Source of the DNA: an uncultured Alphaproteobacteria bacterium
GTDB taxonomy: Bacteria; Pseudomonadota; Alphaproteobacteria; UBA828
Length of the DNA: 42,088 nt
Assembly (NCBI GenBank): GCA_913053235.1
Contig: CAJXFT010000009.1
Location: forward strand, 1 to 42,088
Direction of reading: 5' to 3'
Positions 5,286 through 10,243 of this stretch are shown piece by piece. The position numbers and the translations under genes were made by a program. The stretch's first letter is position 1. Every line of letters starts with the position of its first letter. The notes under the pieces are model-generated. The model made no database searches. It was not told the DNA's origin and saw nothing but the letters and a program-made list of their open reading frames with translations.

Positions 5286-5975
5286 ATGCAGGATTGGCGG
5301 CGCTATCTCAGCGACGGCGACTTGGCGACAATCGAGCGCGGCAAGTGGGCGCGCCCGGTGGGCTACGGCGTGCGTCCGGCGGTGATCGTGATCGATGTGC
5401 AGAACTATATGGCCGGCGAGGAGGCGGGTAACGACCCCGACAAATACCCTTACGCCGCGCCGGCCGTCGCCTGGCCCGCTGTGCGGCAAATCGAAGCCAT
5501 ATTGGCCGCCGCCCGCGGCGCCGGCGCGCCCATCATCTACACCCGCTTCGCCATCGACCGCGAGGCCGGCGACGCTGGCCTGTTCGACGCCAAGATCGGC
5601 GCGCCGGAAAGCGAATATGTCTATCTCGAAGGCACCCATGGCAGCGAGATCGTCAAGGACATCGCGCCCCAGCCCGGCGACCTGGTGATCACCAAGAAGA
5701 AACCGAGCAGCTTTTTCGGCACCCCCCTGCTGCCCTATCTGATCGAACGCCGGGTCGATACGCTGATCGTCACCGGCGGCTCGACCTGCAACTGCGTGCG
5801 CGCCACCGTGTTCGACGCCTTTTCCTATAATTTCCGCGCCATCGTGCCGAGCGACGCGGTGTTCGACCGCATGCCGATTTCGCAGGCGATTAATCTGTTC
5901 GATATGAACCGCTGCTCGGCGGATGTCGTCGAAACGAGCGCGGTGCTCGAATATCTGGCGGGTCTCAAGGCCTAG
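5286..5975 (+). CDS. Isochorismatase-family cysteine hydrolase (N-carbamoylsarcosine amidase-like)
   Basis: PAVIVIDVQNYM...GAPIIYTRFAI...ITKKKPSSFFGTPL...VDTLIVTGGSTCNCVRATVFDAFS; Asp, Lys and Cys of the family are present. Confidence 0.92.
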   Translation: MQDWRRYLSDGDLATIERGKWARPVGYGVRPAVIVIDVQNYMAGEEAGNDPDKYPYAAPAVAWPAVRQIEAILAAARGAGAPIIYTRFAIDREAGDAGLFDAKIGAPESEYVYLEGTHGSEIVKDIAPQPGDLVITKKKPSSFFGTPLLPYLIERRVDTLIVTGGSTCNCVRATVFDAFSYNFRAIVPSDAVFDRMPISQAINLFDMNRCSADVVETSAVLEYLAGLKA

Positions 5976-6184
5976 GTTATGGACTCGCAAATGACGCTCA
6001 CGGCAACGACTTCCGCTAATTGACGTAAACCGGTCATTGTTGATCTACACAGTGAAGGCCCGGTTTTGACATTTGACGCCACGCGTCAACATCCAAATCC
6101 GACGCTGCGAGGACGCCGACCTAGACTCTCGTCTCATTCGTGCATACGTTCTATTCATACCACCATCTGGGTTTGGGGAGGCCC

Positions 6185-7951
6185 ATGACGAAGAAGGTTG
6201 AGCGCAGGCTGGCGGCGATCCTGAGCGCCGACGTGGTGGGCTACTCGAACCTCATGGAGGCCGACGAGGCCGGCACGCTCGCGCGCCTAAAGGCCCACCG
6301 CGCGGAGCTGTTCGACCCGATCACGGAAGAGAATGGCGGGCGCATCGTCAAGCTCATGGGCGACGGCGCGCTGGTCGAATTTCCAAGCGTGGTCGGGGCC
6401 GTGCGCTGCGCAATCGAGGTGCAGCGCGGCATGTCGATGCGCAACGAAAGCCTAACCGAAGGCGAGCGCATCACACTCCGCATCGGGGTCAATCTGGGCG
6501 ACGTGATCATCGAGGGCGAGGACATCTATGGCGAGGGCGTCAATATCGCGGCCCGGCTTCAGGGGCTGGCCGCGCCGGGCGGCGTGTCGGTTTCCGGCAA
6601 AGTGCATGACGAGGTGCGGGGAAAAGTTGAGGCGGCATTTGAGGACCAGGGTGAGAAGAGCGTCAAGAACATCGCCCAGCCGATACGGGTCTATGCGCTC
6701 ACCTCGGCGGACGAGGCGCCGACGAGGCAGGGCGACGAAGGCGCGGACCTTGCGCTGCCGTCCAAGCCCTCAATCGCCGTTCTGCCTTTCAACAATATGA
6801 GCGAAGATGCGGGGCAGGAGTATTTCGCCGATGGCATCGCCGACGATATCCTGACCGGGCTGTCGCGCTTCCACGATCTCTTCGTCATCGCGCGTAATTC
6901 CTCCTTTATCTATAAGGGGTCTGCCGTCGATATTAAGCAAGTCGGCCGCGAACTCGGCGTCCGCTATGTGCTGGAAGGCGGCGTCCGCAAAGCCGGCGAC
7001 CGCGTGCGCATTACCGCCCAGCTCATTGAAGCCGAGACCGGCAATCATCTGTGGGCCGAGAAATATGACGGCGAACTCGCCGATATCTTCGATCTGCAGG
7101 ACGAGATCACCGCGAGCGTGGTGGGCGCGATCCAGACCTCCGTTTCCTTCGCCGAAATCGAGCGCGCCCGCGGCAAGCATCCCAGCAATCTCGATGCCCA
7201 CGATCACATCATGCGCGGCTGGGCGGAATGGATCCACCCCACTCAGGAAGGCATGGCGAACGCCAAAGAACATGCTCGTGCGGCCCTGGCGTTGGATGCG
7301 CGCTACGCGACCGCCTATACCCTATTGGGCTGGGCGGATATGTTGCTGCTCCTCTATGGCTGGTCGGCGGACCACCAGGCAACCATTCGCACTGCGAAAG
7401 AATCGGCGCGGCGGGCGGTGGAACTCGATGACGGCGATGGCGCGGCCTATGCCGTGCTTGGCTGCTCGCTGGTGTTGAGCCGCGAGCACGATACCGCCTT
7501 GGCCGCTTGTGAGCGCGCGGTACGCGTCAATCCCAACCTGGCTGGCGCCGCCCATATTCGAGGATTGGCTTATGTCTGCACAGGCCGGCCGGCCGAGGGC
7601 GTTGAGGAATGCCGGCGCGCGCTACGGCTCAGCCCTCGCGATCCCGAAACATTCGGATTTCTGAATACCTTGGCGATGTGCCAGTATGCGCTGCGCGACT
7701 ATGAAGCGGCGGCGGGAACCGCCGAAGAGCTTGTCGCGCTAAAGCCGGATTATATTTTCGGCCATTGGCATGTCGCCATCGCCTGCGCCCAACTCGGCCG
7801 GACCGAGCGCGCCGAGCGCGCCTTTCAGGAAATCCTCCGCATCAAACCCAATTTCGACCAGGCCTTCATCGACGCCGTCACCCCCTTCCAGGACCGCGCC
7901 GAATACGAACACGAAGTCGACGGCCTTCGGAAAGCGGGTTGGCAAGGTTGA
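6185..7951 (+). CDS. Class III adenylate/guanylate cyclase domain protein with C-terminal TPR repeats
   Basis: RRLAAILSADVVGYSNLMEADEAGTL...GGRIVKLMGDGALVEFPSVVGAV...EDIYGEGVNIAARLQ, then PSIAVLPFNNMSEDAGQEYFADGIADDILTGLSR and TPR-like helices. Confidence 0.95.
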   Translation: MTKKVERRLAAILSADVVGYSNLMEADEAGTLARLKAHRAELFDPITEENGGRIVKLMGDGALVEFPSVVGAVRCAIEVQRGMSMRNESLTEGERITLRIGVNLGDVIIEGEDIYGEGVNIAARLQGLAAPGGVSVSGKVHDEVRGKVEAAFEDQGEKSVKNIAQPIRVYALTSADEAPTRQGDEGADLALPSKPSIAVLPFNNMSEDAGQEYFADGIADDILTGLSRFHDLFVIARNSSFIYKGSAVDIKQVGRELGVRYVLEGGVRKAGDRVRITAQLIEAETGNHLWAEKYDGELADIFDLQDEITASVVGAIQTSVSFAEIERARGKHPSNLDAHDHIMRGWAEWIHPTQEGMANAKEHARAALALDARYATAYTLLGWADMLLLLYGWSADHQATIRTAKESARRAVELDDGDGAAYAVLGCSLVLSREHDTALAACERAVRVNPNLAGAAHIRGLAYVCTGRPAEGVEECRRALRLSPRDPETFGFLNTLAMCQYALRDYEAAAGTAEELVALKPDYIFGHWHVAIACAQLGRTERAERAFQEILRIKPNFDQAFIDAVTPFQDRAEYEHEVDGLRKAGWQG

Positions 7952-7972
7952 GTGTCATGTCTGCTTGTGGCT

Positions 7973-8132
7973 GAGGCTGTTGAAAAACTATTTTGGGGTC
8001 TGAAATCGCGATTTCTCGGAGATCAACGAAAACCCGACTCCCATAAAATCAATAGCTTAGACGTTCACCAATTTGGCGGTGCTCACCGATAACGGCTGAA
8101 AACGCCTTTTTCAGGAGTTGTTCAACAGCCTC
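7973..8132. mobile_element. MITE-like element or IS remnant 1 (~160 bp)
   Basis: TIR GAGGCTGTTGAAAAACT (7973-7989) versus AGTTGTTCAACAGCCTC (8116-8132), 16/17 complementary; flanked by GGCT (7969-7972) and GGCT (8133-8136). Confidence 0.7.
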
Positions 8133-8184
8133 GGCTAAGAACTGAAGTTCAAGCCACCGTTAAAAAACTTCCGCTGTCGGAGGT

Positions 8185-8343
8185 ATTCTGTTGCAAAACT
8201 CGCATTCGGCGGCTCTGGATGCCGATTCTTCATCCGCCGGAACTGGCGCTTTCTGTCAAGTCATTGATTTCGTTGTGCCCGAGTATTGGTGTCCGAGCAA
8301 ACGCCAAGTGAAAAATTGTCCCACAGGAGTTTTGCAACAGAAT
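8185..8343. mobile_element. MITE-like element or IS remnant 2 (~159 bp)
   Basis: Perfect 17-bp inverted repeat ATTCTGTTGCAAAACTC (8185-8201) / GAGTTTTGCAACAGAAT (8327-8343); flanked by direct repeats TCGGAGG (8177-8183) and TCGGAGG (8343-8349), with 1-nt boundary ambiguity. Confidence 0.7.
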
Positions 8344-8514
8344 CGGAGGCATAGCGGACATTGCGCTGGGGGTTCTTGAATGCGAAGCCAAATCCGAATT
8401 GATACCGGATTGACCATCGCACCGTTATCGAAACCTCTTGCCGAACAAGGGCCGTCCAAAAGCGAATCACATAGGGGACGGTTCGAGTATCCTTCGTATT
8501 GGGTCGTGGTTTGG

Positions 8515-9240
8515 TCAGCAGCCGAGTTGCGCCGCGAGATCGAGAAAATCTTCGGCGGTGAAATCCCATGCCCCGTCCGGCTCCAGGTCGGTGGTTTGCC
8601 CCGGCCCGTACTCATGCGGGCGGCGGACGAAGGCGGTCTTGAAACCGAGGGCGGCGGCGGCGGCGAGGTCGCCATTATGGGCGGCCACCATCATGCAGCG
8701 CTCGGGCGCAAGGCCCAGCATCTCGGCGCTGCGCAGATAGGCGCGCGGCTGGGGTTTGTAGGCGCCGGCGGTCTCGGCGCCGAGCACGGCGTCCCAGGGC
8801 AAGCGTGCGCGCTTTGCCATATTGACCAGCAAAGAAACATTGCCGTTGGAGAGCGTCGCCAAAATGAATTTTTCGCTCAGACGATCGAGGCCCGCGACGG
8901 CGTCCGGCCACGCATCGAGGCGGTGCCAGGCGCGATTGAAATGATCGGTCTCGTCTTCCGTCAAGCCGTCGACGCCGTGGCGCGCCAGTAAAATATCGAG
9001 ATTCATGCGGTGCAAATCGTCGAGCATGCACCAGGCGATCTCGCCCGAGCGCACGCGCTCCATGGCCGGCTGATAGAGCGCGCGCCATTCGTCGGCAAAA
9101 GCGAACCAGTCGAGATCGATGCCCTTGGCGCGGCCCAGTTCGGCGCCGTCGCGGGCAATGCCGGAGCGCCAATCGACGACGGTGCCGAAGACGTCGAAAG
9201 TCAACGCGCCGTCGATGGAATGCCGGGCGGCGGCGCTCAC
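8515..9240 (-). CDS. Haloacid dehalogenase type II (HAD superfamily)
   Basis: ALTFDVFGTVVDWRSGIARD...ILATLSNGNVSLLVNMAKRARLPWDAVLGAETAGAYKPQPRAYLRSAEMLGL...MMVAAHNGDLAAAAALGFKTAFV. GTG start at 9240 assumed (the ORF extends to 9297). Confidence 0.9.
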   Translation of the reverse strand: MSAAARHSIDGALTFDVFGTVVDWRSGIARDGAELGRAKGIDLDWFAFADEWRALYQPAMERVRSGEIAWCMLDDLHRMNLDILLARHGVDGLTEDETDHFNRAWHRLDAWPDAVAGLDRLSEKFILATLSNGNVSLLVNMAKRARLPWDAVLGAETAGAYKPQPRAYLRSAEMLGLAPERCMMVAAHNGDLAAAAALGFKTAFVRRPHEYGPGQTTDLEPDGAWDFTAEDFLDLAAQLGC

Positions 9241-9241
9241 G

Positions 9242-10243
9242 TCACGCCCCGAACGGATTTCTCCAACTTTCGAACGCCTGCCTGATTTCCTTATCATCGG
9301 CGCCGGCGCGTAAGAGGAGCGCCAATAACAGGCGCGACTTGATACCGCCGAGCCAACCGGCGGGGATCAGGCCGCGCGCCAGCAGGTCGGTTTCGGCGCC
9401 GGGAAAATCATATGTCGCCCGCATGGTGTCGCCGTGGCGCGTGCGCGAGGCATAGACGACCGGTATTTTCTTCGCGGCGCGCCCCAATGCCTCGACCATC
9501 GCCTTGGGCACATGGCCGCCGCCGGTGACGTCGATGACCATGCCGTGGTAACCGGTTTGCAGGGCGAGATCGACGAGCGTGCCGTCTTCGCCGAGGCCGA
9601 CCGTCAAACGGGCGACGCGCGCGGCGCGCGGAGCGCCGCGCAGTTTGACCGGATAGCGCCCCGCCGGGCGGGTGACGATGCGCGCCTGTTTCTCGATGAT
9701 CCAGCCGAGGGCGCCGGCGGGGCTGGACTGAAACGCCGCCGGGCTGGTGGTATGCAGTTTTTGCACATAGCGGGCGGCGTGAATCTCGTCGTTCATCACC
9801 ACCAATGTGCCGATCCCGCGCGCCTGGCCGTCCAACGCCACCAGGGCGGCATGGTAGAGGTTGGCCGGGCCGTCCGGTCCGGGCATGGTGGGATTGCGCA
9901 TGGCGCCGGTAAACACAATAGGCGCGTCGTGCTGCACCAGGCGGTCGATGACGAAAGCGGATTCCTCGATGGTATCGGTGCCCTGGGTTACGACGATGCC
10001 GCGCACGCCGTCCTCGAGCCGCCGGTTGATCTCGCGCACCAACGCTTCGAGATCGTCAAGGGTAATATCGGGGCTTGGCAGTTGGCGGAAGGAATGCGCC
10101 TCGATCTCGGCGATTTCGGCCAACGCCGGAACCGCCGCGATAAGCATCTCGGCCGAATGCGACAGGGAAACGCCCTTGCCGGGCGCCGTGGCGCCCATCG
10201 CAATGGTGCCGCCGAGGGAAAATACGCTGACCCGAGGCAACAT
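9242..10243 (-). CDS. Asparaginase family protein
   Basis: VSVFSLGGTIAMGATAPGKG...VRGIVVTQGTDTIEESAFVIDRLVQHDAPIVFTGAMRNPTMPGPDGPANLYHA; both catalytic Thr motifs are present. Confidence 0.95.
   Translation of the reverse strand: MLPRVSVFSLGGTIAMGATAPGKGVSLSHSAEMLIAAVPALAEIAEIEAHSFRQLPSPDITLDDLEALVREINRRLEDGVRGIVVTQGTDTIEESAFVIDRLVQHDAPIVFTGAMRNPTMPGPDGPANLYHAALVALDGQARGIGTLVVMNDEIHAARYVQKLHTTSPAAFQSSPAGALGWIIEKQARIVTRPAGRYPVKLRGAPRAARVARLTVGLGEDGTLVDLALQTGYHGMVIDVTGGGHVPKAMVEALGRAAKKIPVVYASRTRHGDTMRATYDFPGAETDLLARGLIPAGWLGGIKSRLLLALLLRAGADDKEIRQAFESWRNPFGA

Follow-up and report, generated by a model that had tools for sequence, protein, structure and literature searches.

Two adjacent MITE-like elements with IS1182-type ends in the spacer between convergent genes of an uncultured alphaproteobacterium

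Described systems and the present locus

MITEPye1 of Paracoccus yeei is a 159 bp element devoid of any reading frame, which is bounded by 18-bp IS1182-like terminal repeats and flanked by 4-bp direct repeats; in the excerpts of its description it is intergenic, present in 1-3 copies per chromosome and capable of a long stem-loop fold (PMC11578231). Two short elements, hereafter elements 1 and 2, lie side by side in the window, the whole 42,088-nucleotide stretch of contig CAJXFT010000009.1 (assembly GCA_913053235.1) that was analysed. Compared by description only, and as far as those excerpts go, they are like MITEPye1 in size, IS1182-like ends and lack of a reading frame. They differ in their host and in their palindromic target, a feature which the excerpts do not describe for MITEPye1 (PMC11578231). 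An earlier note on this DNA had suggested two members of an undescribed family of short elements inserted next to each other; a related, non-autonomous and adjacent pair is indeed present, but its kind is already described, being that of the IS1182-type MITE with MITEPye1 as precedent.

Full-length copies of the IS1182 family (loci L159, L167, L258-L267 and L271-L281, L258 being ISMno9) have ends of the form (K)ATTCTGTTGAAAAACTC or close variants and a symmetric target consensus, as do elements 1 and 2; they are about 1.5-1.8 kb long and contain a transposase gene, which the window elements lack. ISPse1, which belongs to the IS1182 family and was caught with a trap plasmid, has 4-bp repeats (PMC3281130). 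The duplication of 4 bp is shared by these IS1182-family copies, ISPse1 and element 1, the likeness to ISPse1 being one of family and duplication length. IS1272 is likewise related to IS1182. In Staphylococcus it targets inverted repeats, which it is reported to replace with no duplication (PMC5678879), whereas elements 1 and 2 leave the target arms in place and duplicate 4-5 bp. Insertion sequences targeting repetitive extragenic palindromes (REPs), including ISPpu9, ISPpu10 and ISRm22, are members of the IS110, IS3, IS4, IS256 and IS5 families (PMC1525189). Their palindromic extragenic target is like that of elements 1 and 2, and IS1182 is not among the families listed in the excerpts of that survey (PMC1525189). 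Against this background it is very probable that 7973-8132 and 8184-8344 are two independent MITE insertions with ends recognised by IS1182-family transposases, made in trans and each situated in the middle of a symmetric target of about 44 bp.

Boundaries and genomic setting of the two elements

The pair had first been noticed through four copies of the core CTGTTG(A/C)AAAACT in alternating orientation, all of which were found: 7977-7989 (+), 8116-8128 (-, one mismatch), 8188-8200 (+) and 8328-8340 (-). The near-equal core-to-core spans of 152 and 153 bp are also as originally claimed, and interior clustering bears out that the two interiors are unrelated to each other. Allowing at most 2 mismatches, we counted 6 core matches in the window where 0.48 are expected, and none of 100 shuffles reached that count. 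A weaker core-like match at 8157-8169 (2 mismatches) was rejected as an element end. The inverted repeats extend past the cores, over 20 nt at 90% and 17 nt at 100% identity, and the true ends were set by the target duplications, which are perfect for both elements. The features are as follows, with the strand where one applies and the basis of each assignment in brackets.

6140..7951, + strand: upstream gene, adenylate/guanylate cyclase catalytic domain and TPR repeats (Pfam)
7969..7972: target duplication GGCT of element 1, left copy (sequence; geometry from other sites)
7973..8132: element 1, 160-bp MITE without transposase (same-length end-to-end homologues at unrelated sites)
7973..7989, + strand: element 1 left terminal inverted repeat GAGGCTGTTGAAAAACT (core and repeat searches, target model)
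8116..8132, - strand: element 1 right terminal inverted repeat GAGGCTGTTGAACAACT (core and repeat searches, target model)
8133..8136: target duplication GGCT of element 1, right copy (sequence; geometry from other sites)
8179..8183: target duplication GGAGG of element 2, left copy (sequence, target analysis)
8184..8344: element 2, 161-bp MITE without transposase (ends, duplication, target)
8184..8201, + strand: element 2 left terminal inverted repeat TATTCTGTTGCAAAACTC (core and repeat searches, target model)
8327..8344, - strand: element 2 right terminal inverted repeat GATTCTGTTGCAAAACTC (core and repeat searches, target model)
8345..8349: target duplication GGAGG of element 2, right copy (sequence, target analysis)
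8515..9297, - strand: downstream convergent gene, haloacid dehalogenase-like (HAD-like) hydrolase (Pfam)

Both elements are too short to hold a transposase gene, and as each has a duplication of its own, of 4 bp in element 1 and 5 bp in element 2, they represent two separate insertions. The outer bases of element 1 are GAGG instead of GATT or TATT, a difference from the full-length IS1182-family copies. For element 2 a 4-bp duplication with an inserted T was considered and dropped, the 5-bp duplication fitting both halves as well as other elements.

The elements occupy the spacer between the 3' ends of the convergent cyclase/TPR and HAD-like genes, and may possibly influence the two transcripts. 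Their predicted RNA folds have energies of -61 kcal/mol (z -3.0) and -76 kcal/mol (z -3.8) relative to shuffled sequences, and the whole region has a z of -4.4; stable folds are expected, because the ends are inverted repeats. We consider it very unlikely that the locus is, as had alternatively been suggested, an alternating hairpin array retained for a role in RNA or DNA topology (as a terminator, processing site or small RNA), any mobile ancestry being incidental. Both folds do exceed shuffles in stability and a position between convergent genes would suit a terminator, but comparable folding is obtained from any element with 17-bp inverted ends, a scan of the window with Rfam covariance models gave no match, no T-run follows the long stems, and what looks like a terminator at 8167-8184 consists mostly of the target site. 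The same-genus relatives retain the downstream gene; the spacer aligns in just one of them, where the elements are absent, and no exact empty orthologue of the locus was found in the genus. A hairpin array is thus unnecessary, since the duplications, the boundaries and the homologues at other loci show transposition.

Paired ends and homologues in other genomes

We searched 85,462 species, each represented by one genome, with the pattern core-N(112-142)-inverted core and recovered at least 118 stretches with such pairs, distributed over several phyla, against about 0.06 expected by chance (from 264 billion bases at equal base frequencies); many of these elements are related to each other, so that the counts are not independent, and duplicates were removed by their flanks alone. 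As the pattern presets the length range, this census is silent on shorter or longer elements; E-values and ranks were computed on draft genomes. Among the matches listed the hosts include Rhodobacteraceae, Sphingopyxis, Variovorax, Azotobacter, Acidobacteriaceae, Krumholzibacteriota, Thermodesulfovibrionia and others. Inverted core pairs of the kind that the earlier note proposed to look for are therefore present in many unrelated genomes, with related ends in the same genus, but the host assembly itself (3.9 Mb in 363 contigs, 94.7% complete) contains no second copy of either element. Both units match one and the same IS family, rather than different ones.

At 78 distinct sites the direct repeats cover the positions -8 to -5 and +5 to +8 relative to the cores, precisely four and no more; the match rate is 71-74% at each of these as against about 30% at the adjoining positions, which implies that each end consists of four bases plus the core. 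A perfect 4-bp duplication is seen at the predicted place in 60 of 111 distinct sites, compared to 3.9% with shuffled partners. In a nearly identical set the longest perfect repeat measures 4 bp in 58/109 sites and 5 bp in 13/109; the 5-bp duplication of element 2 is accordingly a minority form, which counts against our reading.

Among the matches listed, the element lengths at census loci L039-L157 bunch near 149, 158-161 and 166-168 bp, possibly reflecting shared ancestry. A length period of about 10 bp was obtained over 40 interior clusters of the matches listed (p about 0.007, not corrected for having tried four periods and confined to the preset length range). It is conceivable, though improbable, that IS1182-type MITEs are a very broad grouping with unrelated interiors and with lengths set roughly one helical turn apart (148-149, 158-161 and 166-168 bp), as if the transposase needed its ends at a fixed rotational phase and a short distance, in a strictly symmetric target. 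At another census locus, in a Yoonia MAG (L106, 6969-7191), a further core of the same type is found within about 15 bp beyond an element, possibly another side-by-side arrangement like that of the window.

Element 1 groups by its interior with the elements of two loci in other genomes, L155 and L156, to which it is 82% and 86% identical, gapless over 160 bp and at unrelated locations. The similarity ends at the element boundaries, beyond which the flanks are unrelated except for the target consensus. A further homologue, 82% identical and again flanked by GGCT, is present in another family of the class (L269), making three with shared boundaries at unrelated sites; in addition L270 gives a shorter match, and the right 98 bp recur as a 79% identical remnant at a different locus within the genus. 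Element 1 hence represents a mobile MITE family, which was not found described in the literature searched; literature searches by sequence returned nothing relevant. Neither element has DNA matches in the plasmid and phage collections.

Target sites, transposases and mobilisation

A symmetric target model was trained on 79 insertion sites, exclusively from other genomes, and used to score the window with both elements joined out; the half-site consensus of the AT class reads cgAAtGtCnGcTatc[GGCC]. The model defines the following half-sites.

7949..7968, + strand: left half of target P1 (target model, rank 1 of 41,714)
8137..8156, - strand: right half of target P1 (target model)
8159..8178, + strand: left half of target P2 (target model, rank 2 of 41,713 with 5-bp spacing)
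8350..8369, - strand: right half of target P2 (target model)

The site of element 1 thus scores highest among all window positions, and that of element 2 second at its own 5-bp spacing but 597th at 4-bp spacing, so that its rank depends on the choice of spacing, which rests on the duplication. We dropped a true stem-loop requirement at the target for most sites: the arms of AT-type sites pair no better with each other than with arms of different sites (z 0.07), and a symmetrically bound sequence consensus therefore suffices there. At the 18 GG-type sites arm pairing is above the class consensus (z 3.1).

Several similar sites were encountered without these elements. Contig C143 of the host contains an element-free sequence resembling the target of element 1 (ATGTCGGCTGTTGGCTGAGAACCGAAGTTCAAGCCACCGTCAAA), which is a possible unoccupied relative of that site at another locus and not an empty orthologue. 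In contig C69 of the host (L253, 180-285, minus strand) the end of a paralogous cyclase/TPR gene is followed by a half palindrome, a different hairpin element of about 95 bp (GATTGTCCGACACCTGCCGA ... TCGGCAGGTGTCCGACAACC) and then AAAAGCGGACGTC, i.e. another small insert in a site of the same kind. Read by eye, an IS30-like element in a same-genus genome (L237, about 5735-7086, G034:C11) apparently sits mid-palindrome in such a site (GATGTCCGGCTTTTAGGGTGG / GGTGGCAAGTAATAGCGGACGTT), suggesting that such sites may also be used by other IS families; an IS30-type end as the source of the end of element 2 was rejected, because the IS30 appears, also by eye, to have its own ends further in. In a genome of the same order (L180, 60-460, G026:C87) several empty palindromes of the type ATGTCCGCTTATGGCTATAAGCGGACAT occur within 400 bp, one of them interrupted by a GAGGCTGTTGAA end, and exact palindromes number 7 in this genome versus 0 for the reversed control.

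A palindromic target and such clustering of empty palindromes might recall REP/BIME-like repetitive extragenic palindromes in place of transposon ends, an explanation which we regard as extremely improbable. The core does not lie within the palindrome; rather, there are palindromes without an insert, and cores that flank IS1182 transposases. Moreover, element 1 measures 160 bp and has target duplications, whereas REPs have none and are palindromic units of 20-40 nt with many intergenic copies, as opposed to a single copy in this assembly.

The transposases were identified in full-length elements, sought as inverted core pairs 1.5-2.6 kb apart. The proteins of those with the present ends match the NCBIfam model NF033551 for the IS1182 family transposase (355, 405 and 360 bits; cut-off 270) and also contain DUF772 and DDE domains. 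We inspected 13 copies, comprising ten from plasmids retrieved by a transposase search, one of which is annotated as ISMno9, and three genomic ones: in 11 of these, ISMno9 included, the 4-bp duplication is perfect, its position agrees with that in the MITEs, and the targets are of the same type. Perfect 4-bp duplications are likewise present in 8 of 9 further IS1182 copies in viral contigs. The core is identical to the ends of L159, L276 and L277 and to the left ends of L167 and L258. The end type of element 2, GTTGCAAAA, is found at the full-length IS1182 L279, which its C variant resembles. Within the genus there are partial IS1182 transposase matches, and the C-variant end matches two loci, L242 and L243: in L243 the end ATTCCGTTGCAAAACTC is followed some 70-80 bp on by ATGATGGGTCCACGG (MMGPR), which resembles how several IS1182 transposases begin and lies roughly as far from the end as is usual, before the sequence breaks off, and in L242 the same end runs into the contig end.

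These same-genus ends bear on the possibility that element 1 alone is a true MITE family, and that element 2 arose just once, by internal deletion of a single IS1182 copy, and did not multiply afterwards. Apart from the occurrence of an IS1182 end of the element 2 type in those two genomes, it would explain why the interior of element 2 lacks a homologue, and the element a full-length one, in 386 genomes of the class and among the census matches listed, whereas element 1 has several. On the other hand, a length of 161 bp, intact perfect 17-bp repeats and a clean 5-bp duplication resemble a transposed small element and not decay in place, and, compared with the left end known from the IS1182 of this genus, the interior agrees over only a few bases. 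We consider this derivation a serious though somewhat less probable alternative; element 2 may instead belong to a multi-copy family.

Based on these observations we propose, in keeping with two independent MITE insertions, that an IS1182-family transposase supplied in trans would excise such elements from donor sites, and that each would then be inserted at the centre of its target of about 44 bp with duplication of the central 4 bp (GGCT) or 5 bp (GGAGG). The two lie side by side, about 50 bp apart, because the convergent-gene spacer contained two adjacent good targets. An IS1182 transposase was searched for in the host assembly but not found, and neither element has a second copy there, so that the home genome does not reveal the mobilising enzyme, which counts against the proposal; the mobility in question would probably be past rather than present. 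Multi-copy insertion sequences are often missing from assemblies as fragmented as this.

A conspicuous repeat is thereby accounted for by a known mechanism, and at least one apparently unreported MITE family, that of element 1, is added to a kind of element whose precedent in the literature searched is one MITE from one species. An explicit symmetric target consensus becomes available for IS1182-type elements, which predicts insertion sites in a genome outside its training set. As the census pairs extend over several phyla, such elements probably often go unannotated.
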